Virus record (IMG/VR): IMGVR_UViG_3300013132_000297
Span: 1-21,638 of that record
Strand: one strand, 5' to 3'
Length of the DNA stretch: 21,638 nucleotides
Origin: a virus
Positions 6,190 to 17,250 of this stretch are shown here, one piece after another (position 1 is the first letter of the stretch; each line of letters opens with the position of its first letter). The notes under the pieces are model-generated. The model was not told the DNA's origin. It did not search any database and saw only the letters and a program-made list of their open reading frames with translations. The position numbers and the translations under genes were made by a program.

Positions 6190-6857
6190 TACACTTCTTC
6201 CATTGTCATAGAAATATCCCAGAATGGAGTTACCCCACGACGTTTTAAGCTTGCGCTAAATGATGTGCAATTAACGTTGTATGTAGTAAATGATTCTGTT
6301 CCACTGTATGCATAATTTAATTTAATATTAAATGTTGATTGTCCCTCTTCACTTTCGTAAAATTTAATTATATCTTCCGCTCCCCAATATCCATCTGCCG
6401 TATATGCTCTTTTTCCTGGTAGAGTGGTCCAAGATAAAGAAAATGTTTTTTTATCTGCCACAAAAAATTTTCTTAGTGTACCATTTGTTGTTCTAACTAC
6501 CTGCTCAATTCTATTTGTAGAAACGTCAATTGGCTGCCTATTGTGTTCTGTCACTTTATTCCAGGATATAATTTTTGCTGTGCCACCTGAAACAAATGCT
6601 CCTGCGGTTGAATTTGCAACAGTAAATTGCGTTGAAGTTCTTGACGCTATTGTTACATTTGTTAAATTATATGCTACTGGCAATACCCCAGATATTGTAA
6701 CCTTTTGTCCAGCAGAAAAACTATTATTTGCAGTATATGTAATTACGCCAGCGGCAGCAGATATTCCAGTAATTGTAGCAGTTTGATTTGTTCCTAAAAG
6801 ATCATGACCATAAACTTCAAGGAGTACACCTCTTGGTAAATATGTAGATGATGGCAT
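6189..6857 (-). CDS. Distal tail (Dit)-like protein with inserted beta domain
   Basis: A 222-residue protein encoded directly after the tape measure gene, the usual place of the distal tail protein that caps the tube. The ends look like a tube-type beta sandwich: the N-terminal PRGVLLEVYGHDLLG continues after an insert into KVTEHNRQPIDVSTNRIEQ, and the C-terminus is SFSASLKRRGVTPFWDISMT. Residues about 28-95 are an insert with the repeated phage motif VTISGVLPVAYNLTNVTI, then TSTQFTVANSTAGAFVSGGT, which is a small beta domain often found in tail proteins. A good ribosome binding site (AAGGAG, 6 nt before ATG) lies inside the end of the tape measure gene, and stop and start overlap as TAATG. 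The Dit assignment rests on position and fold character. Confidence 0.6.
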   Translation of the reverse strand: MPSSTYLPRGVLLEVYGHDLLGTNQTATITGISAAAGVITYTANNSFSAGQKVTISGVLPVAYNLTNVTIASRTSTQFTVANSTAGAFVSGGTAKIISWNKVTEHNRQPIDVSTNRIEQVVRTTNGTLRKFFVADKKTFSLSWTTLPGKRAYTADGYWGAEDIIKFYESEEGQSTFNIKLNYAYSGTESFTTYNVNCTSFSASLKRRGVTPFWDISMTMEEV

Positions 6858-9800
6858 TATATGCTCCTTGTCCTTCCCGCCTTGGCTAACGCTAGAGATG
6901 TAGCCTGATTTACCCTAGTAAATACTTTATTTACCAGTTCGTCTGTATCCATGCCAGGGGCGGCATGAATAGTAAGATTATTATTAATACTTACTGCTCC
7001 GCCTGCAGAATCTGTTGCAAATGGATTATTTGGATTCATTGCAGATGGTACAACCATTTCGCCTTTATGCAACTGTGCTATTGTATCATCATACACATAC
7101 TTTGCGCCAGTGTAATATGATGGCATTGACATGTTGCTTGTATATGCTGGATTTACATATCCGCTAAAAGTATTTACATATCCACCGCCTGCAAGTTTGG
7201 GTGGAACTGCAACATATCCTTTTCCTCTTTCCCATTTAATTATAGGATCAGTTACATCTGCTCTACCTGTATTCCAATTATACTTTTTGCCTTCCCACAA
7301 ATAACTTTGTGGTCCAACAGGAATAATATTAGGCAGAGATTCGCTATTAGTATATTTAGAAAAGTTTTGATATATTGGATTAAAATATTTTAAAGGTCCA
7401 TCAGGCCAATCTAAATACCTATATCCTCCTCCTCCAATTGCTGGTCTAGGATAATCATCTACATCTGGCTTATTGCCATAAATTAAATATGATCCACCTC
7501 TTCCCACCGATGGAGTTCCTCCAAATGATCCCTTATAACTATTCTCTCCACCCCTATTGACCGCCATTCCAGCTCTGCCCTCATTTGCATATCTTGTTTG
7601 TTTCCATGCATCAAATTTAAATCTTGGGAAGTCGTAATCCATTGGATTTACCAATGTTCCATTTGCTAGCTTTAAGCTATAATATCCAACATTTCTTCTC
7701 ATTGCTTCTATGTCAGAGATTGAAATTGATCTTGCTGTAGGCATTCCTGAAGAAGGAAACATTATGTTAAACGGATTAAATGTATGAGTAGATTTTTTTG
7801 GTGTTATATATTGAGCATCAGGATTATATCCTGGCCATGAGTTGCCCTCCACCGCTTGTTCGCAAATAGGGCAGAAAAATCCTTTTGGATCATTCGCACC
7901 TAAAACATGTATAAGTTCATGAGTAGCAATATCCCTTGTAAGCAATTCTCCAGATGCTAATCCAAAACTTATCCTATTTAATGTTTTAGGGGGCATAAGT
8001 GCTACACGGTAAGGAGTAGCAAAACCGCCCAGGTTGCCTGGAATACCTTTTTTACTGTCAACTTGTACATGTCTATATCTATTATTACTTTCTGGTATTG
8101 GACTTTCTCCACCCCATGGCTTAACTATAAAATTAATTCCAGTAGCTTTTGATAATTTATCTGTTGCTCTTTTAACACCTGCAATAGTTTCTTTAAATTG
8201 TCCTTTTTCCGATGAGACATGCAAAACTACTGTTTGAGGATTAGGATTTTTTACATATTCAGCAGTTGTATTTATCTCATGATAACTTAGACCTCCACCT
8301 ATATCTGTATATGGTTTGCGGTAAACGATTCTTCCCTTTTGTCCCAATAGCTGTTCTTGATTTTGAAGTGCTTCTAAGTTAAATGGAGCCATTCCAACTT
8401 TGGAAATAGAATTCATAATAAAGCTGAGTGCATTCTTAATTCCCCTAGGTTTTAATAGCGGAGGCATTAATCCTATTCTTGTTTGTTTATCACTTCCTAC
8501 AGGTCCGCCATCTTTAAATCCAGGAATATTAATTTTAGTTCCCTTAAATATTGTTCTTCCTTTATGATATTTAGGGTCGGATAAAAGAGTAGGATTAGCC
8601 TTAAACAATTTAGACAAACCTATATTGTTTGCTTTTGCTATATCAAAAAGACTATCTCCACGCTTTGCCGTATACTCTCTTATGCTGCTAAATTCTCCTG
8701 TAGGAGATGCTATCGAAGATGTGCTGGTGGCACCGATTTTTTTACCATAACCCCTTTTAACTCCAGAAACAATTTCATCTTTTTTAACAGGTTTTACAAA
8801 TCCTGCTGGCTCTCCCCTATATGAAGGTCTTCCAAATCCTCTTGTATATACTCCACCTCCTGGATTAAATGGTCCATATAGTCTAACTTTTCTTGCAACT
8901 CTTCCGCCTGCCGACTGGTTTGTTTCAGAGGTATTGCCTTCTATTGTACGCACTGATTTGTTATTAATTACAGATTCAACTAGGCCAACATGCTCTACGA
9001 ATCTATTCGGAAGTTTTTCAAAATCAAAAAATGCTAAATCTCCAACTTGTGGACTGCTCTTCCATCTATTCATTCTTCTAAATGAAGATACTGCAGATTC
9101 TGTTCCTATAACATAAGGAAGCTTAACTCCAGAAATTTTTGCAATTGCTGATATAAATAGTCCGCACCACTTTTCAAAGTTTCTTGTTACATTGTTTACT
9201 GTTAATGGATTTGCTCCAATTATATTTGTAAGATATTTATATAAAGAGTTGTTTCTAGACTTTTCCGAATAGCCCAAAAATCCTTTTGCTATATCAAGCA
9301 TAGAAGATGCTGTTCCTGGGAAGAATTTAATTCCCATAAAACCCTTTTGCTTTGGCTCTCCGCCTTTATCAAATTTTTGAATAGGTCCGCCATCTTTTCT
9401 ATTTATAATATTAAATGCTGCTTCTAGAATTCCCGCCGATCCTTTTTGATTAATTAGATGCATATTGTTTACGCCAGCATCATGAACAGCAGCAGACCTA
9501 GTTACGAATTCTCCATTTGATAACCTTGCAAGAATTGAGTCGGAAGTCCAAGTTCCAGGACCAGATACTGGCCCATCTGTAGTTCCATCTGAAAATCCTC
9601 TAAAGTATCCGCCTGACGCATATTTAGGCTGAACAGGATCCAATTTATACTGCCACTGTGAATTCATCCCGTCAAAAGTATAAAGATAGAATCTTTGTCC
9701 ACCATTTCCAATAAATCTAGTATTTATTTTTCTTTCAATATTTGCTTTCTTTAATTCATTTTCACTAAAAAATCCTAAATCTCTTCCAGCGCTATAATTA

Positions 9801-12800
9801 TAAGTTTCTATTTGAGGTTTAGGTTTGTTTGTTAATGGTGCTCCAGTAGTATCTGGCCTAGGAGTATTTTGTTTTTTATACTGTTCTTTTGCCTCATCTG
9901 GACTTTTTGTAACTTCTTTTGATGGATCTGGAAGATCTAGTATTTTACGTAATTGTTTTTCTGTTAGCCCTAGAGCCTTGCCTAAACTTTTTGCTGCGGC
10001 TCCAAGAATATCCAATTGCCCGCCATTATTGTATGCTTTATCCAAAATTTGAGCAAGTAGATTTTTATTAAAATTATCTATAGTTGTTTTTAACTCATTA
10101 AATTTCTTTTGTAGTTTTTCTGCACCTTCTGTTGCTAAAGCTGCAGCGTCAGAAAACTTTGTAGCCTCATCGTTTAATTTATCTATTTCTTCTTGATATG
10201 GCGCTATATCTGCTTGTCGTCTTTCTTCTATAGCACGTTCAGTTAATGTTGCTTGCTGTCTATTTGTTAATTGCTGTAGATCAAGCTGGGCTTGAGCGGC
10301 TCCGCCCATATCTCCCATTGCAAGTTTTTGTTGATAATCAAGACGTTTCTTTTGAATCTCAATATTAATATCTTGATCTTCTGCTTCTTGCTGCAAAGCT
10401 TTTTTACGGGCATCTGCCGCTTCATTAATCTTTTTAATTTCTTCATTTAAATATTTGATTCTATCTCTACGATTAATTTGTGCTTTTACAGACTCTCCCC
10501 TAGAGGCCTGTTCTGCCTTTAGAGTAGCTGCTCTTAAATCATTAAGTTCTTTATATTTGCCTTTAAGGACTCCCTTTTTACTTTCATCAATAATTTTTTG
10601 TTGTTGTTGTACAGCATAATTATAAATTTTATCAATCTCTTCAACATTAAAATTTAATAAATTTCCAGTAAAACCCATATCTAGCAAGCCTTGTTTTTGA
10701 GACAAGCTTTTTACAGTATCTGCTGAGTTCGCTATTTTAAGAATTGCAGCATCTACTGCCGCAAGTTTTGCAAGTAACTCTTCTCCTATAGGGTCAAACT
10801 TTAATTTACTTAAATCTTGCATTAAAGATTTTTGAGCTTTTAATCTTGCTTCCGTTTCATTAAAATATGTTTTATCTTTAATGGCCTTCTTTTCGGCGGC
10901 TTTAACAGAAGAATCTACAGCATTAGTTATGCTTCCCATAGCAGTACTTAATGCATTAACCTGAGCATCTGTATCTTTTACATTTTTTCTTACATAACTA
11001 AATGTTTCTATTGCTGCTTTAGCTGCAGAGCTAGCATCTGTTATCGATTTAAATGATGCATTTCCTAGTGTAGAGGCATATGCATTTGCAGATTTATTTG
11101 AAATTGAAAATGCCATGTAGATCTTTTTGGAAGCTTCTTCTGCAGACATTCCTGCGCTTACAAACATAGCTTTTAATTGAGTTGCAATTCTTGGAAGATC
11201 TTCTTTTTTAGTATTATTGATTAAATCAATTTGGTCTCCCATAGTTGATTTAACTTCTTTACGAAGCTGCTTATATTGAGTTATGGTCATTCTAATTGGA
11301 GAATCAGATAATGTCATTCCCTCATAAATTGCTTTATTACTATCTTGAAACATCTTGTTTGCAGCTATTGTGTCTTTTAAGGTATTGCCAAAATTCTTAA
11401 ACTTTAAACCTAATTTACCTGCAGATTCTGCAGTTAATCCAGAGGCAAGTCTAGTTCTATCTAGACCTTCCTGATATTGTTTCCATTTGCTATATCCAAA
11501 CGCTGCAGCTCCTGCAACAAGCCCTATAGCAACATTTGTTCTTGTTAATACAGATCCTAGTCTTACTAATGAGGTTCTCCAGCCATTTGATGCTGCGGCA
11601 TTTTTTTCAAACCATCCAGAAATTTTTCCGCCAGACCTATTGTCTAAAAATCCTCCGCTGCTAAATATAGACTGTTTTCTTGAAGGTATTGGAGGTTGCA
11701 ACATACCAGTCATCTGCATTAAAGGGGCGCCAGCTAAAGCTTGCTCTATGGTTGGGGCAGAACCAGAGAATAATGGCGGCTGAATGCCAAATCTTTGCTG
11801 AGGAGTAAATCTAGGCCTCATCATTCCTGGCATCATAAACATTGATCCAACTAGTGAACCTGTACTTATTGCTGATCCTGCTGCTCCACCAACTCTACTT
11901 CCTATAGCCTGTCCAGCCATTGGAAGACCCATCATTGCAAGTAATGGTAATATGCCTCCGCCTAAAATTCTATTTTGTACTCCTCTTGCATATCCATATA
12001 CATTTCCGCCCATTCCATATCCTGGAACAATTCCGCCAGAATTCTTTGGAACAAATACCTCTGGCCCATTCTCTCCAACAATGTATGGTGTGCCAGCATT
12101 TACTTGTCCGCCAAATGCTCTGTTTCCACCTAATGGACCAAATACTGTTTCTATTTGTAATCCTTTTTCGTCCGCCCCTACAATTCTAAATTTGCCACCA
12201 AATACTGACTCTTCTTCAGATCTAGCCGCTTCAATTCTTTTTTCTTTTGATTTACCCTTAGTACTCTTAGGTACAAATTTAATATCTGGGAACATTTCAG
12301 ATGTAGGCGTTACTCTTCTATTTCTTACATCTGCTACTATTCTAAAATCGCCAAATTCATCTGCTACGCCTGGGCTGGCGCTCCAAGAAGACCTACGCAT
12401 AATAAATTCTTTACCAATAAGTCCAGAATAATCTCCAGATGCTCTAGCCTTCTGTATATCATCTAATAGCCAAGGTGGAAGAGGCTGAACATCTCTTAAT
12501 CCAGTTAATCTAATTCCTCTATAGAATCTTCCAGTTGTTTTTTTACCCCACGCCTTCATTGCCGCAATTGCCCCTGGAACTTTTAGAACATCGTAGTTTC
12601 CAAGCATGTATTCTTGAGTTACATATCTGCCACGATCTTCTAATGAACCAGTTAGGAAAGCTTCACTATTAGAAGTTCGTCCAGGAATCTTATAGTCTAT
12701 AGATGCGCCTTTACGTCCTACTCTAGTTGGTCTTGGTGGAGCGTATCTGCCTATACTGAGCGGGCCATGTAAAGGATCTTGATTAGATAGACTGTCTCCT

Positions 12801-15800
12801 CCATATACACTTCCCCATCTTGCAGTAATTCTATCTATAATTGATTGAGGTAATCCTTTTACAGATCTTCCTCTAAGATATCCTGGCACCATTCCGCCAC
12901 GATTTGCTGCCATAGGTATTGATCGTGGTATATTTAAGTCTCTTAATCTTGATCTTATACTTCCAGTAACTAAATTGCCAAATTTGTACTCATCAATTGC
13001 TCCAGGAATTCTAGATACTTTAGAGTTAACGTCTAATAATACATCTTCACGTATTTGTCTTATGTCGTTTTCGCCAAATCCTAAGCTTAACAAGAAATGA
13101 GTTAGTCCAGTAAAATGTTCTGGTTGTGGGTTGCTATCTATCCAATCTTTTGATGTTGCTGTTCCTTTTCCAAGCTTCCTATTAAATATTCCGCCAAAAG
13201 TCATTACATTATTTGGTAATATGTCAAATATTCTACCAGCAGAGTTTATGCTGATTCCATTTGCTCTTAACTGATCAATTGTTAACTGCGGTGAAGATCC
13301 TTTAGAAGGAGTAGCTCCAAGGGCATCCATCAGTTTTTTAAATGGATTTGTATATAGATGACCAACAACTTGATCACTTCCAGGAGCGCCTTCTCTTAAT
13401 AGTGGACTTTGTGCCCAGAAAGCTCCCCTTGTTCCAGAAGGATTACGCATTTGTTCATAAACCATTCTTTCTGGGTTAGCTCCACTCAATACTCTAGTTG
13501 ATCTAGATCTAGATCCAGCTTTTCTTGCACCACCAATCAATGCGGATCTAGCTGCAAACAGCATTGATAATATTCCTCCACCACCAAATCTATACTGTAC
13601 TCCTGGAATTTCTCCACCTTGATGCCTATTAATTGGAACAACTACAGCATTACCATCATTGAGAGCCCTCATTCCATCTGGATCTTGTTGAGCTACATCT
13701 CGGCGGATGACAAATTCTCCTGGAGTAAGCATTGCAGGAACTACATCTGCATTTACATTTGGTCCAGGAACTTGATCGCCGTCGTTGTAAAACACTTTGC
13801 CACCCTTATTTAATCTACGAGTAGTTTCAATACTATATGGGCCGCCAAGTGTTCTTGTTCTAGTTGCTCTTCCAACTGCATCCATAACATCTCTGAATAT
13901 TCCTGTACGGAACATTCCACGAGTATTTGGCTTGCCTGCGGCATCTACAACTGGCTGATCAATTAATGGAGCTTTAGTTAAATCGATTGCTCTACCACGA
14001 GATGCAGCATATGCTGTAACTTCAACGCCAAGCATTCTTTCTAACTCAGCATTAGCAGCCATAATTCTACCCAATGCTACCTCTGCGCTTATCTTTCCTG
14101 CACGAAGATCTGCAACAATTGCAGCAGATTGTGTTGCTGCATTTGCAGTTAATCTTTGAGTAATTGGCAATATGTCATCAAACGTATCAATAAATTCTCT
14201 TGATACTTGTCCGCCAAGACCAATTGTTTTCTTTAAAGCTTCAATTTCTTGTTTGCTTTGTACGCCAAGTGTTGCCATTAATGCGGCATATCTTGCATGT
14301 TCTCCTGCTACAATTCCTGTTGAAACACCGCCAATTGATGTAACGCCTTCAACGTCTGGAAGTCTTTCTGACATCAATATTTGTGGAGTACGACCAATTG
14401 TTCTGTTTACTGGAATTGGTTGTAGCGATAGTCCAAATATTGTAGATGGATCATTTGGATTTCTAGGATTAATATGTGCTGCTGCTCTTGACTCTCCGCC
14501 TAACAATGGATGTCCTGGAATTACTAATCTTAGTCCGCCCAAACCTCCGACTGGCATAATAGGAGTTCCAGCAGCTGTAGAAATAACTTGACCCAATCCA
14601 GCAGTAGCACCAGTAGCTTTTGTAGCATTAAGTTGAAGTAATACTAAATCATTATTTAATTTCTCAATTGCTAGTCTTAGTGTATCTGCTGCTTTTGCGT
14701 CGCTATAGAACTCATTTTCAAGCATTTGGCTGGCATTTTTAGCCGCAATAATTTCTGGAGTTAGTAGTTTGAATCCTTCTGCACCTTTAAATAGCGCCTT
14801 AAAGTGTCCAAGGCCTTTTATGATATATCCAAAGAAGTTTGCAAGAACACCAGTAAGCATAATTACTGGACCGACAATTGCTGTAAATGCTCCTCCAAAT
14901 GCTAGAATCTTTTTAATTGGATCTGGTAGCTTTTGTCCAAATTCAATTATTTTGTTTAATACATTTATTAATTTAGTTGCAATATTTAGGAAGTCATCTC
15001 CAACTCCTGCTAAACTTGCTCTAAGTGATTCTGTTGCTCTCTTATATCTTCCCGCCGCTGATTCTGTAACTGCCGCCAACTCTCGATTAGCCACCGACTC
15101 TAGTTCGGAAGCGCTGGCCTTCATTAAATCAAGAACTTGTAAAGTCTGACTTCCTTGACGCCCTAAATTCTCAAATAAAGCATTAAGCCTTGAGTATTGG
15201 AACTTACCAAACAACTGTTCAATTGCTTGCTGCTTTTGCAAAGGATTTAGTCTGTCTAATGCTGCCTGTAAAGCAAACAATGTATCTGTTGTGCTGCCTG
15301 CATTTTTATTAACAATTCCAAGAAGATCTATCCCAAATCCTTGGAACTTCTTTACTGCAACATCGGTTGGGTTAATCAAAGATGCGAGTGCAGACTTTAA
15401 TGCATTTGCTCCTTCTGATGCATTGATACCACCTTCACGCATGGCGGTAAGATAAAGAGCAAGATCTTCTACGTCTCCGCCCAAACCTTTAATAACAGGT
15501 CCAGCTTTTGGAATTGCTTCTACAAGATCGTTTAGAGTAGTTGATGTTTGGTTTTCAACTGCGTTTAAGAAGTTAATAGTTTCTGCAAGTTCTTCTGTAT
15601 TTTGTTTAAATGCTGATTGAATTGCAAGAGTTGCTTTCATGGCCTCTTGACGATCTACTTCTCCAAGTACAGCCAATCGTGTTGTTTCTGAGACTGAAGA
15701 AAGTAGTTCATTTCCAGTTTTACCAGTGGCCGCAATATCAGCAGCTAATGCAATTGTTTCTGAGAAGTTAACGCCCATCGCAGCAGATAATTCTTTTGCT

Positions 15801-16519
15801 GTTGCTGCAACTTCTTTTCTGATTTGCCCAAGCTCTTGTGCAGATGTTCCTGAGATATCTCCATAAACCTTAGTTAAACGAGTTAACTCTTGATCTGCCA
15901 CTTTAAATGCATCTGCCGCCGCCTTACCAAATGCTACAAGTGGTAATGTTAATCCTACCGTTAACTGACGACCTGCCCACTGAGTATTCTTACCCCAGTT
16001 GATAAGTTGAACTCCGCCATCTTGGATAACCTTATTCATTATCTGAAGCTCTTGCCTCAAGATAGCAGACTTATTCTTTGTTAAATCTAAACCTCTTGGA
16101 ATGTGTACGTTATACTGCATCAACCCTTGGGCATTTCTACCTAGGGGTTGAAGTACAGCATTTTGTAATTGTACTTGCTGTTTAGCAAGATCTCTAATTA
16201 ATCCGCCACTTGTTTTTACTTGATCTTGATATACTCTAAAATAGTCTCTGAGTTTTAATCTTCCGCTATCAAGATTACGACCAAACTTTTCAACATCTGA
16301 TGTTAGGCTGACGAAATGTGATGAAAACTGGCCAGTCTTGAGCATAGTCTGGGCAAACATTGCATTAGCTGCATCAATTTGACCAGATAATGCTCTATTT
16401 GAACCAGCAAACTCTTGCTGTAATTTGTGTAGGCTGTTTGTGACTCGTTGCACATCGGCAATGAGACCTGAAAAATCCGAATTTGCAACTATACTAGTTA
16501 CAATTTTTTCGTCAGCCAT
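6857..16519 (-). CDS. Giant multi-domain tail tape measure protein
   Basis: A 3,220-residue protein. Long coiled regions of tape measure proteins set tail length, and the protein leaves the tube before DNA during infection. Residues about 180-520 match the TP901-type tape measure core (GRQLTVGLTLPLVAFGKAAA; LYLTAMREGGINASEGANAL), followed by a hydrophobic segment at about 538-570. Further regions in order: an unassigned region, 945-1285; an ADP-ribosyltransferase-like domain, about 1286-1465; a second hydrophobic Gly/Met-rich stretch, about 1500-1570; a charged coiled coil, about 1985-2150; CHAP, 2405-2565; LysM, 2614-2668; and a metzincin-like protease, 2746-2948. Gly-rich linkers and four GEFV/GPEVFVP-type motifs (G934, G1485, G2336, G3153) separate the blocks. 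The chaperone gene ends 12 nt upstream. The AAGGAG ribosome binding site overlaps the chaperone's end and lies an unusual 15 nt before the ATG. The tape measure assignment is firm, and domain roles are inferred from motifs. Confidence 0.95.
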   Translation of the reverse strand: MADEKIVTSIVANSDFSGLIADVQRVTNSLHKLQQEFAGSNRALSGQIDAANAMFAQTMLKTGQFSSHFVSLTSDVEKFGRNLDSGRLKLRDYFRVYQDQVKTSGGLIRDLAKQQVQLQNAVLQPLGRNAQGLMQYNVHIPRGLDLTKNKSAILRQELQIMNKVIQDGGVQLINWGKNTQWAGRQLTVGLTLPLVAFGKAAADAFKVADQELTRLTKVYGDISGTSAQELGQIRKEVAATAKELSAAMGVNFSETIALAADIAATGKTGNELLSSVSETTRLAVLGEVDRQEAMKATLAIQSAFKQNTEELAETINFLNAVENQTSTTLNDLVEAIPKAGPVIKGLGGDVEDLALYLTAMREGGINASEGANALKSALASLINPTDVAVKKFQGFGIDLLGIVNKNAGSTTDTLFALQAALDRLNPLQKQQAIEQLFGKFQYSRLNALFENLGRQGSQTLQVLDLMKASASELESVANRELAAVTESAAGRYKRATESLRASLAGVGDDFLNIATKLINVLNKIIEFGQKLPDPIKKILAFGGAFTAIVGPVIMLTGVLANFFGYIIKGLGHFKALFKGAEGFKLLTPEIIAAKNASQMLENEFYSDAKAADTLRLAIEKLNNDLVLLQLNATKATGATAGLGQVISTAAGTPIMPVGGLGGLRLVIPGHPLLGGESRAAAHINPRNPNDPSTIFGLSLQPIPVNRTIGRTPQILMSERLPDVEGVTSIGGVSTGIVAGEHARYAALMATLGVQSKQEIEALKKTIGLGGQVSREFIDTFDDILPITQRLTANAATQSAAIVADLRAGKISAEVALGRIMAANAELERMLGVEVTAYAASRGRAIDLTKAPLIDQPVVDAAGKPNTRGMFRTGIFRDVMDAVGRATRTRTLGGPYSIETTRRLNKGGKVFYNDGDQVPGPNVNADVVPAMLTPGEFVIRRDVAQQDPDGMRALNDGNAVVVPINRHQGGEIPGVQYRFGGGGILSMLFAARSALIGGARKAGSRSRSTRVLSGANPERMVYEQMRNPSGTRGAFWAQSPLLREGAPGSDQVVGHLYTNPFKKLMDALGATPSKGSSPQLTIDQLRANGISINSAGRIFDILPNNVMTFGGIFNRKLGKGTATSKDWIDSNPQPEHFTGLTHFLLSLGFGENDIRQIREDVLLDVNSKVSRIPGAIDEYKFGNLVTGSIRSRLRDLNIPRSIPMAANRGGMVPGYLRGRSVKGLPQSIIDRITARWGSVYGGDSLSNQDPLHGPLSIGRYAPPRPTRVGRKGASIDYKIPGRTSNSEAFLTGSLEDRGRYVTQEYMLGNYDVLKVPGAIAAMKAWGKKTTGRFYRGIRLTGLRDVQPLPPWLLDDIQKARASGDYSGLIGKEFIMRRSSWSASPGVADEFGDFRIVADVRNRRVTPTSEMFPDIKFVPKSTKGKSKEKRIEAARSEEESVFGGKFRIVGADEKGLQIETVFGPLGGNRAFGGQVNAGTPYIVGENGPEVFVPKNSGGIVPGYGMGGNVYGYARGVQNRILGGGILPLLAMMGLPMAGQAIGSRVGGAAGSAISTGSLVGSMFMMPGMMRPRFTPQQRFGIQPPLFSGSAPTIEQALAGAPLMQMTGMLQPPIPSRKQSIFSSGGFLDNRSGGKISGWFEKNAAASNGWRTSLVRLGSVLTRTNVAIGLVAGAAAFGYSKWKQYQEGLDRTRLASGLTAESAGKLGLKFKNFGNTLKDTIAANKMFQDSNKAIYEGMTLSDSPIRMTITQYKQLRKEVKSTMGDQIDLINNTKKEDLPRIATQLKAMFVSAGMSAEEASKKIYMAFSISNKSANAYASTLGNASFKSITDASSAAKAAIETFSYVRKNVKDTDAQVNALSTAMGSITNAVDSSVKAAEKKAIKDKTYFNETEARLKAQKSLMQDLSKLKFDPIGEELLAKLAAVDAAILKIANSADTVKSLSQKQGLLDMGFTGNLLNFNVEEIDKIYNYAVQQQQKIIDESKKGVLKGKYKELNDLRAATLKAEQASRGESVKAQINRRDRIKYLNEEIKKINEAADARKKALQQEAEDQDINIEIQKKRLDYQQKLAMGDMGGAAQAQLDLQQLTNRQQATLTERAIEERRQADIAPYQEEIDKLNDEATKFSDAAALATEGAEKLQKKFNELKTTIDNFNKNLLAQILDKAYNNGGQLDILGAAAKSLGKALGLTEKQLRKILDLPDPSKEVTKSPDEAKEQYKKQNTPRPDTTGAPLTNKPKPQIETYNYSAGRDLGFFSENELKKANIERKINTRFIGNGGQRFYLYTFDGMNSQWQYKLDPVQPKYASGGYFRGFSDGTTDGPVSGPGTWTSDSILARLSNGEFVTRSAAVHDAGVNNMHLINQKGSAGILEAAFNIINRKDGGPIQKFDKGGEPKQKGFMGIKFFPGTASSMLDIAKGFLGYSEKSRNNSLYKYLTNIIGANPLTVNNVTRNFEKWCGLFISAIAKISGVKLPYVIGTESAVSSFRRMNRWKSSPQVGDLAFFDFEKLPNRFVEHVGLVESVINNKSVRTIEGNTSETNQSAGGRVARKVRLYGPFNPGGGVYTRGFGRPSYRGEPAGFVKPVKKDEIVSGVKRGYGKKIGATSTSSIASPTGEFSSIREYTAKRGDSLFDIAKANNIGLSKLFKANPTLLSDPKYHKGRTIFKGTKINIPGFKDGGPVGSDKQTRIGLMPPLLKPRGIKNALSFIMNSISKVGMAPFNLEALQNQEQLLGQKGRIVYRKPYTDIGGGLSYHEINTTAEYVKNPNPQTVVLHVSSEKGQFKETIAGVKRATDKLSKATGINFIVKPWGGESPIPESNNRYRHVQVDSKKGIPGNLGGFATPYRVALMPPKTLNRISFGLASGELLTRDIATHELIHVLGANDPKGFFCPICEQAVEGNSWPGYNPDAQYITPKKSTHTFNPFNIMFPSSGMPTARSISISDIEAMRRNVGYYSLKLANGTLVNPMDYDFPRFKFDAWKQTRYANEGRAGMAVNRGGENSYKGSFGGTPSVGRGGSYLIYGNKPDVDDYPRPAIGGGGYRYLDWPDGPLKYFNPIYQNFSKYTNSESLPNIIPVGPQSYLWEGKKYNWNTGRADVTDPIIKWERGKGYVAVPPKLAGGGYVNTFSGYVNPAYTSNMSMPSYYTGAKYVYDDTIAQLHKGEMVVPSAMNPNNPFATDSAGGAVSINNNLTIHAAPGMDTDELVNKVFTRVNQATSLALAKAGRTRSI
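7676..8284 (-). other. Metzincin-type zinc protease domain inside tape measure
   Basis: Residues about 2746-2948 contain HELIHVLGAND (H2867, E2868, H2871, G2874, D2877). This is the extended zinc motif HExxHxxGxxD, with Asp as third ligand as in snapalysins. A Met-turn candidate FNIMFPSSG (M2920) follows 49 residues later, then SISISDIEAMRRNVGYY, which matches the last helix of matrixin-like enzymes. An unusual CPIC pair (C2883, C2886) sits just after the zinc motif and could bind metal or form a disulfide. The substrate is unknown. Confidence 0.8.
8516..8680 (-). other. LysM peptidoglycan-binding domain inside tape measure
   Basis: Residues 2614-2668 match a single LysM: the entry strand YTAKRGDSLFDIAKANNI (G2621, D2622), LSKLFKANP in the second helix and the closing GTKINIPGF. 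LysM binds GlcNAc-containing polymers such as peptidoglycan. Its place about 50 residues after the CHAP domain suggests that it holds the hydrolase on the wall. Confidence 0.85.
8825..9307 (-). other. CHAP peptidoglycan hydrolase domain inside tape measure
   Basis: Residues about 2405-2565 show the CHAP arrangement. The nucleophile is in FEKWCGLFISAIAKISG (C2452). The PQVGDLAFFDF strand follows, then the histidine in VEHVGLVES (H2510) and an acidic or amide residue in TIEGNTS (E2527, N2529). CHAP enzymes cut peptidoglycan as amidases or endopeptidases. In a tape measure such a domain plausibly opens the cell wall locally as DNA is delivered. Confidence 0.85.
12125..12664 (-). other. ADP-ribosyltransferase-like domain inside tape measure
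   Basis: Residues about 1286-1465 of the tape measure carry the three landmarks of R-S-E ADP-ribosyltransferases in the right order and spacing. The NAD-contacting arginine is in RFYRGIRL (R1334). The S-x-S segment RRSSWSASPGVADEF (S1378, S1380, S1382) is the counterpart of the usual STS strand before a helix. The ExE site is in SEEESVFGGKFRIVG (E1435, E1437), followed by the typical K/R-F-R-V strand. Known enzymes of this class move ADP-ribose from NAD to a protein. Here the target is unknown. The closest functional analogy is virion-delivered phage ADP-ribosyltransferases such as T4 Alt, but no homology is claimed. The fold could have lost activity. Confidence 0.7.
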
Positions 16520-16531
16520 TTATATTACTTA

Positions 16532-17193
16532 TTACTCCTTAGAGTATCCAAGTCCCATTCCGATTCCGAATCCTTGTTCTGCAGCCATTGAGCCTTGAAG
16601 CGAAACGACATCATCTGTTGTTGCTTCTATTCCCATAGCCCTGAGTCGGATATCCTCAAAGGTTGGACCTTTTGCTTCTTCTTGTTCATCTCTTAGGTCG
16701 ACCCCTTGTAGAGATGCCAAGAATATTTTATCTTGTCTCTCCCTCTCTTGCATCGATTCTACTGTTTGCAAAAGCTCTGGCATTGAGAGACTTTCTTCTA
16801 GATCCTCGTATGATCTCCAAGCACCTAAAAGAAATACTTTACCAAGTAAAGCGGCTAAATCTAGTTCTGACCAGCCAGAACCGCTGCCGCTACTAGGTTT
16901 GGGTCATCAAGTTTGATGCCGCCACATACTTCAAGAATTCTGTTAATTGTTGGAACATCTAGAGCTTCCTCTAGCTTATCCTTATCTTTTACAAGATCTG
17001 GAAGTTGTGTCTCCAAAGCAATTGCACAAGCATCAATAAGTACGCTTAGTGATTGATCTTCTGTTGTAGCCTCTGAGGCCTTATTCATTGCTGCCATAAA
17101 TTTACGCAGCTGTTTAATTGATAGTGGCTTCAACTGAACTGTTGAGCCGTTTTGTAGTTTAACTTCTTCTACGTCGTATACTGTAGTAGCCAA
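16532..17193 (-). CDS. Tail assembly chaperone, frameshifted long form (GT-like)
   Basis: This is the -1 frameshift product of the tail assembly chaperone, a counterpart of lambda gpGT. Translation begins at TTG 17193 and shifts at the heptamer 16903-16897, where base 897 is read twice. It continues from CCT (897-895) to the stop at 16532, giving 99 + 121 = 220 residues. The second frame starts with the flexible linker PSSGSGSGW and then SELDLAALLGKVFLLGAWRS, and ends in an acidic, helical tail finishing GIGMGLGYSKE. The -1 frame has a TGA (906-904) just upstream of the heptamer, so it opens exactly where ribosomes would enter. An internal ATG at 16783 has no ribosome binding site, so the T part is probably made only by frameshifting. 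In other phages the long form links the tape measure protein to tail tube subunits. Confidence 0.85.
16850..16891 (-). promoter_or_regulatory. Putative frameshift-stimulating RNA structure
   Basis: Five bases after the heptamer, AGCGGC (16891-16886) can pair with GCCGCT (16855-16850). Inside this loop, GTTCTG (16881-16876) pairs with CAGAAC (16869-16864) around a six-base loop, with possible GU extensions on both sides. A 5-nt spacer to the outer stem is ideal for pausing a ribosome on the slippery site. An alternative CTAGT/ACTAG pairing (16896-16892 with 16865-16861) is also possible. The structure is read by eye and not folded. Confidence 0.5.
16861..17193 (-). CDS. Tail assembly chaperone, short form (G-like)
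   Basis: A 110-residue protein when started at TTG 17193 (LATTVYDVEEVKLQNGSTVQ), and 120 residues if started at ATG 17223. The TTG is preferred because AAAGGAGG lies five bases upstream. The ATG has no ribosome binding site and is embedded in the -10 element TATAATG, so it would precede the transcript. The protein has an N-terminal beta stretch (EEVKLQNGSTVQLKPLSIKQ) and then helices (RKFMAAMNKASEA; DKDKLEEALDVPTINRILEV), like other small chaperones encoded between major tail and tape measure genes. It ends at TAG 16863-16861 when no frameshift occurs. By analogy with lambda, the short form is made in large excess and coats the tape measure during tail assembly, and it is absent from virions. 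Confidence 0.85.
   Translation of the reverse strand: MATTVYDVEEVKLQNGSTVQLKPLSIKQLRKFMAAMNKASEATTEDQSLSVLIDACAIALETQLPDLVKDKDKLEEALDVPTINRILEVCGGIKLDDPNLVAAAVLAGQN
16897..16903 (-). promoter_or_regulatory. Programmed -1 frameshift slippery heptamer
   Basis: The zero frame reads GAC CCA AAC, giving C CCA AAC, a perfect X XXY YYZ heptamer in the correct phase. After a -1 slip both tRNAs can re-pair on CCC AAA. The -1 frame is blocked by TGA immediately upstream and open for 121 codons downstream. Confidence 0.9.
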
Positions 17194-17221
17194 TTTATCC
17201 TCCTTTAGGATAGTTATAAAC

Positions 17222-17250
17222 ATTATAACAAATAGATTTTATTAACACAA
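17222..17250 (-). promoter_or_regulatory. Promoter for chaperone-tape measure-baseplate unit
   Basis: TTGTGT (17250-17245), a 17-base spacer, and TATAAT (17227-17222) with an extended TG one base upstream (TGTTATAAT). The expected start is near 17215, leaving a leader of about 22 nt that contains AAAGGAGG before TTG 17193. It begins only a few bases after the major tail terminator, so the downstream genes can be transcribed independently. Confidence 0.6.

Follow-up and report, generated by a model that had tools for sequence, protein, structure and literature searches.

The window analysed here is the whole contig, 21,638 bases, of the IMG/VR virus record IMGVR_UViG_3300013132_000297, which carries a run of tail genes on the minus strand. 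Its largest gene, the open reading frame (ORF) 6857–16519, encodes a very long tape measure protein (TMP) with a domain of the ADP-ribosyltransferase (ART) type in its middle part (Table 1). The identity of the carrier is based on its homology to TMPs, namely the matches to Pfam PhageMin_Tail and to the PHROG tape-measure family phrog_10030, and on the position of the gene after the tail chaperones. An initial annotation of the sequence had proposed an ART-like domain buried in the TMP at positions 12125–12664, which correspond to TMP residues 1286–1465, and this was borne out by the predicted fold, by the invariance of the R-S-E (arginine, serine, glutamate) active site in homologous domains and by the TMP homology of the carrier. 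That the domain is a real ART of the R-S-E type is, in our judgement, practically beyond doubt, and it is very probably catalytically active.

Table 1. Features of the TMP gene and its upstream neighbours in the window (aa, amino acid residues of the TMP)
Feature	Position	Strand	Evidence
TMP with ART cassette, 3220 aa	6857..16519	-	PhageMin_Tail E 1.1e-28; phrog_10030 E 3e-118
ART domain, aa ~1283-1470	12110..12673	-	44-row alignment; AF2 pLDDT 83; Foldseek and VIA-align
R1334, predicted NAD-binding Arg, first core strand, [FYHW]-R-G	12518..12520	-	44/44; pairs with the Arg of T4 ModB YRG
S1378-W1379-S1380, S-x-S/T motif, end of second core strand	12380..12388	-	S1378 and W1379 44/44; 1380 is S in 42, T in 2
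E1435-x-E1437, E-x-E (ARTT) motif; E1437 predicted catalytic Glu	12209..12217	-	both Glu 44/44; middle residue variable
Conserved TMP N-terminal part, aa 1-1000	13520..16519	-	~59-84% identity in close relatives, ART-bearing and ART-lacking
Pre-ART region, aa 1000-1235	12815..13522	-	weak conservation, 28-34%, in 25 loci
Glycine-rich TMP linker after ART (GGQVNAGTPYIVGENGPEVFVP...)	12020..12103	-	common to many unrelated TMPs; phrog_30701 and phrog_1538 matches
CHAP-type peptidoglycan hydrolase-like domain, aa 2404-2548	8876..9310	-	Pfam CHAP E 1e-5; PHROG endolysins
LysM domain, aa 2616-2649	8573..8674	-	Pfam
HELIHVLGAND metal-binding motif, aa 2867-2877; predicted peptidase	7889..7921	-	sequence
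Two reading frames for tail-assembly chaperones, immediately upstream of TMP	16532..17223	-	phrog_344, phrog_10504; overlapping frames

Relatives of the domain were collected by profile scans of the viral collection seeded from relatives of the TMP N-terminus, which gave 44 distinct domains on IMG/VR contigs (the window's included), forming 14 clusters at 70% identity and with pairwise identities down to 27%. Five residues, R1334, S1378, W1379, E1435 and E1437, are invariant in all of them. As only 23 of the 157 core columns of this alignment are invariant (mean column identity approx. 48%), the chance of all four residues named beforehand being so is small (p = 3.6e-4). The initial annotation had pointed to R1334 in FYRG, to the serines of SWSAS and to E1435-x-E1437 with a following KFRIV strand, and these were found where it had placed them, with the R, S and E conserved throughout the homologues; of the serines, S1378 is invariant and S1382 varies among the 44 domains, and the real motif is S1378-W-S/T1380. 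The ratio of nonsynonymous to synonymous substitution rates (dN/dS) was 0.13–0.29 among the listed pairs of 75–77% identity, which indicates a maintained enzyme and no relic. The conservation of the catalytic residues and purifying selection on the domain are well supported.

The model predicted with AlphaFold2 (AF2) from the 44-member alignment has a mean predicted local distance difference test score (pLDDT) of 83, above 90 in the core, and a predicted template modelling score (pTM) of 0.76. Its elements follow the R-S-E order of ARTs: a helical N-terminus, the first core strand with the arginine (model residues 57–67), a helix, a second core strand ending in S-W-S, the S-x-S/T motif (102–111), and E-x-E at the opening of a long C-terminal strand (168–181). 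Foldseek against the PDB returned 45 matches with E <= 1e-3, the best with an E-value of 2e-5 and a probability of 1.00, and VIA-align gave Z-scores of up to 11.0 (root-mean-square deviation of 3.0 over 136 residues), with 103 chains at Z >= 8; each of the 50 matches listed by either program was an ART. The predicted structure thus has the split beta-sandwich fold of ARTs. Among viral models in BFVD, phage ARTs, T4-like ADP-ribosylases and fusions of head (minor-capsid) proteins with ARTs were matched. The TM-scores were moderate (0.35–0.5), which makes this a divergent family of the ART fold.

Single-sequence searches with the ART region gave no match by Pfam, by phmmer against the PDB, by tblastn against phages or in a first viral scan, and an AF2 model made from the single sequence, with no alignment, was meaningless (pLDDT 31). 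Profile searches of the PDB returned chance matches only (CptN toxin, E 0.2–1.1). The Pfam profile ADPrib_exo_Tox (PF03496) had no match in the alignment members scanned, and one sub-threshold match, with 12.1 bits as against a curated cut-off of 23.4, was seen in 12 records, so that the domain is not assigned to that family. In a global profile alignment of the ART family with T4 ModB, hhalign scored 18.6, as compared with a maximum of 11.3 in 100 ModB shuffles. Here, YRGI was paired with YRGI, FIMRRSSWSAS with the FSTNRVDSFTTS region, and SEEES..GGKFRI with REQEW..IGKYKI. No useful profile alignment of the family was obtained with T4 ModA.

Based on related TMP N-termini, 80 contigs were fetched and the domain was then sought in those. 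It was present in 5 of the 54 TMPs with a long frame, a sample not selected for the ART, at the same place and with 46–53% identity; the tail can therefore do without it. Each of the 18 longer contigs had a single copy, located in a very long frame, and nearly all of the 44 domains reside in proteins with TMP homology, as far as the contigs reach. The exceptions, L109 and L102 among them, are truncated fragments that do not reach the TMP N-terminus; the domain of L109 closely resembles those of L110 and L111, which are TMP-borne. The position of the ART is mostly within residues 1266–1684 of the TMP; in the divergent group L110/L111, with 27–30% identity to the window's ART, it lies near the C-terminus (residues 1820–2132) of another TMP. 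Within the sensitivity of the scan, no relative of the ART was detected in the 84,980 species genomes of GTDB, GTDB contigs matched neither the TMP nor the ART of the window, and INPHARED phage records contained no ART relative apart from the linker shared with other TMPs. It should be noted that in locus L023 (12585–12616) the TMP frame breaks into two overlapping frames ahead of the ART part, by either a sequencing error or a real frameshift.

The TMPs closest to that of the window (L002, L003 and L005) have no ART, and the homology resumes on both sides of it: L005 can be aligned with window residues 1–1236 and then with 1493–2364, 121 other residues replacing the ART. On the tree of TMP N-terminal parts, the presence of the ART requires at least six gains or losses, even if only well supported branches are counted, and in the window's own clade of six TMPs three have it and three do not. 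Furthermore, in the ART tree the domain of the window does not group with those of L006 and L093, its sisters by TMP, and their forced grouping was rejected by the approximately unbiased test (p-AU 0.004), a value to be read with caution on account of long branches. It is well supported that the ART is an exchangeable cassette between the conserved N-terminal part of the TMP and its central, CHAP and LysM parts. The corresponding slots of ART-lacking TMPs (L002, L003, L005, L014, L050 and others; residues approx. 950–1500) hold 76–563 residues of other sequence, possibly other cargo, in which a Pfam scan found no known enzyme domain. We tentatively raise the idea, which we would place somewhat short of likely, that TMPs in this group of phages provide an effector slot for exchangeable host-acting enzyme cassettes, of which the ART is one, carried in the tail and released into the cell before the DNA. 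If so, the effector-slot TMP would serve long-tailed phages generally for the delivery of effectors, as a counterpart to the effectors packed in heads, Alt and MuF.

We consider it likely that the domain is an active mono-ART that is carried in the tail lumen and acts early on a cytoplasmic target in the host. The E-x-E motif of R-S-E ARTs points to arginine as the acceptor, and arginine is probably the acceptor in this case also. The TMP, packed in the tail lumen, would exit before the DNA when the phage infects, its CHAP/LysM part would help to breach the peptidoglycan, and the ART domain would reach the cytoplasm, the site of NAD+, and transfer ADP-ribose to a host macromolecule, to the benefit of the phage. 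As NAD+ is cytoplasmic, an active ART implies either the entry of that part of the TMP or an action in the producing cell. The initial annotation envisaged an effector injected at the start of infection; this would agree with the placement of the domain within a TMP and with NAD+ being cytoplasmic, and T4 Alt and MuF-ART proteins offer precedents for it. TMPs are thought to help form the conduit for DNA through the inner membrane (PMC9022992), and in the gene transfer agent RcGTA the inner tail proteins must exit before the DNA (PMC7296036).

Several points weigh against this reading. RcGTA ejects its tape measure into the periplasm (PMC7296036), so that cytoplasmic entry of a TMP is not to be taken for granted, and TMPs may stop in the membrane or in the periplasm, where NAD+ is scarce. 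The main physical worry is the tail tube: with a width of approx. 4 nm (PMC9022992), it leaves little room for several folded domains of approx. 20 kDa, and the ART domain must therefore be unfolded, elongated or at the tip. To these are added the low frequency of the ART among the sampled TMPs (5 of 54) and the lack of any Pfam ART profile match over the cut-off. In polyvalent proteins, peptidases have been proposed to separate the domains after entry (PMC5512222); by analogy, we speculate that the metzincin-like motif of the window's TMP might play a similar domain-separating role.

The empty single-sequence searches of Pfam, the PDB and phages, together with the low pLDDT of the single-sequence model, are what a chance motif match in low-complexity TMP sequence would produce. 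The alignment-based model, the unambiguous fold searches and the conservation in 44 of 44 domains refute this explanation, to which we assign practically no likelihood. Another conceivable explanation is that the tail has adopted the ART fold for a structural or binding role that involves no catalysis, since TMPs tolerate globular insertions and the domain is flanked by glycine-rich linkers. However, a relic would lose the R, S, E and E residues that are invariant here at a mean column identity of less than half, and we reject this explanation as very improbable.

The remaining alternatives accept an active site that is in use. The ART may be active in the producing cell, where, late in infection, new TMP would ADP-ribosylate proteins of the host or of the virion (tail proteins or chaperones), and that it also ends up in the tail would be incidental. 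TMPs are made in the NAD-rich cytoplasm and are coated by chaperones before assembly (PMC9022992), and no ADP-ribosyl-removing Macro domain was found in 18 related contigs, so that the producing cell has no obvious protection. It would be simpler, however, to place such an activity in a late gene of its own; every homologue with a readable carrier is fused to a TMP, which argues that travel in the tail matters, and GTDB genomes held no free-standing copy. We regard late action as unlikely. ARTs with a conserved E-x-E often hydrolyse NAD+ without an acceptor, which would suit an enzyme that has kept its active site as an NAD-consuming glycohydrolase or for counter-defence, draining NAD+ or modifying defence proteins, and not for the reprogramming of host transcription. 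The patchy gain and loss of the cassette fits an arms race, and phage NAD/ADP-ribose systems are linked to counter-defence (PMC9503650). On the other hand, the few TMP copies per cell make bulk depletion of NAD+ improbable, and the one genetic link sought, to Macro domains in the same 18 contigs, was absent; this alternative seems to us quite unlikely.

The ART of the window can be compared with several known systems. T4 ModB, ModA and Alt share its predicted fold class and its R, S-x-S and E-x-E motifs, and the global alignment with ModB covers all three motifs. Alt, too, is delivered from the virion (PMC9503650), but from the head, in which it is packed, and the Mod proteins act as free enzymes inside the cell, whereas the window's ART is remote in sequence and its carrier is a tail TMP. 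Alt-like ARTs are marked, besides packing in the head, by injection and by modification of host RNA polymerase or other proteins. The MuF-VIP2 ART fusions of actinobacteriophages (PMC7302621) and AXL1 gp16, detected in purified virions (PMC9206674), resemble the window's ART in that the enzyme is joined to a virion protein and is presumed to be injected. In these, the MuF carrier is head-associated and the ART C-terminal, whereas the window's ART is located mid-way in a tail protein in which Pfam recognises PhageMin_Tail, CHAP and LysM only, and no N-terminal MuF. Polyvalent proteins are similar in that a very large virion protein combines several enzyme-like domains (ART, peptidase-like, wall hydrolase) with a presumed action upon entry; their ARTs are, however, of the H-Y-D type (Tox-ART-HYD2) and not R-S-E as in the window, and TMPs are not mentioned there (PMC5512222). 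The Sle1-type TMP-like effectors of actinobacterial contractile injection systems also have exchangeable functional domains and are packed in a tail-like particle (PMC13277306), but this is a bacterial contractile nanoparticle and it is the C-terminal domain that varies; an ART is not described as far as the available text goes. Enzymatic cargo is likewise carried by TMPs that contain peptidoglycan hydrolase domains, and the window's TMP itself has CHAP and LysM domains; such hydrolases act on the cell wall, whereas an NAD-dependent enzyme needs the cytoplasm.

The known virion-borne phage ARTs are head-linked (Alt, MuF, and portal and terminase neighbourhoods). In a survey of viral NAD/ADP-ribose systems, head-linked contexts account for approx. 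44% of phage ARTs, and TMPs are not mentioned in the text available (PMC9503650). No report of an ART inside a TMP was found in a full-text search of openly licensed papers, which covered PMC7302621, PMC7824862, PMC9206674 and PMC9503650 to the extent that their text is available and the others by title and abstract. We therefore regard the tail-borne, TMP-embedded R-S-E ART family as new, virion-borne ARTs as such being already established. With an ART family known from TMPs only, it becomes testable whether the TMP gets into the host cytoplasm, in whole or in part, and whether enzymes are sent in by long-tailed phages before the DNA: ART activity is confined to places with NAD+, and the modified products would show where the TMP goes.

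As regards the rest of the carrier, the N-terminal 670 residues of the window's TMP are similar to TMPs of Streptomyces and Gordonia phages, among others; the best-ranked TMPs from isolated phages are those of Streptomyces phages (31–34% identity). In the pre-ART region (residues 1000–1235), identities of 28–34% were seen in the best of 25 loci, several of which are ART-bearing TMPs. The linker after the ART has the pattern V-N-A-G-x-P-Y-x-V-G-E-x-G-P-E-x-F-V-P and recurs in TMPs of, for example, Serratia, Klebsiella and Pseudoalteromonas phages; the matches of phrog_30701 and phrog_1538 and the tblastn matches of L136 to many phages are due to this shared linker and were rejected as ART relatives.

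The HELIHVLGAND motif is metzincin-like, with a Met-turn NIMFP (in NPFNIMFP) downstream, and its region of the TMP had no match in the PDB or Pfam. A similar HEILH...NPFNIM is present at residue 2613 of the TMP of L133. The TMP frames of L140 and L142 (4190 and 4160 residues, respectively) each have an ART and a HEFGH motif near residues 3454–3477, and these motifs are predicted, from sequence, to mark further enzyme cassettes in TMPs. The two tail-chaperone frames upstream of the window's TMP overlap, frame 0 being open past the end of ORF 16861–17223, as in tail chaperones made by programmed frameshifting.
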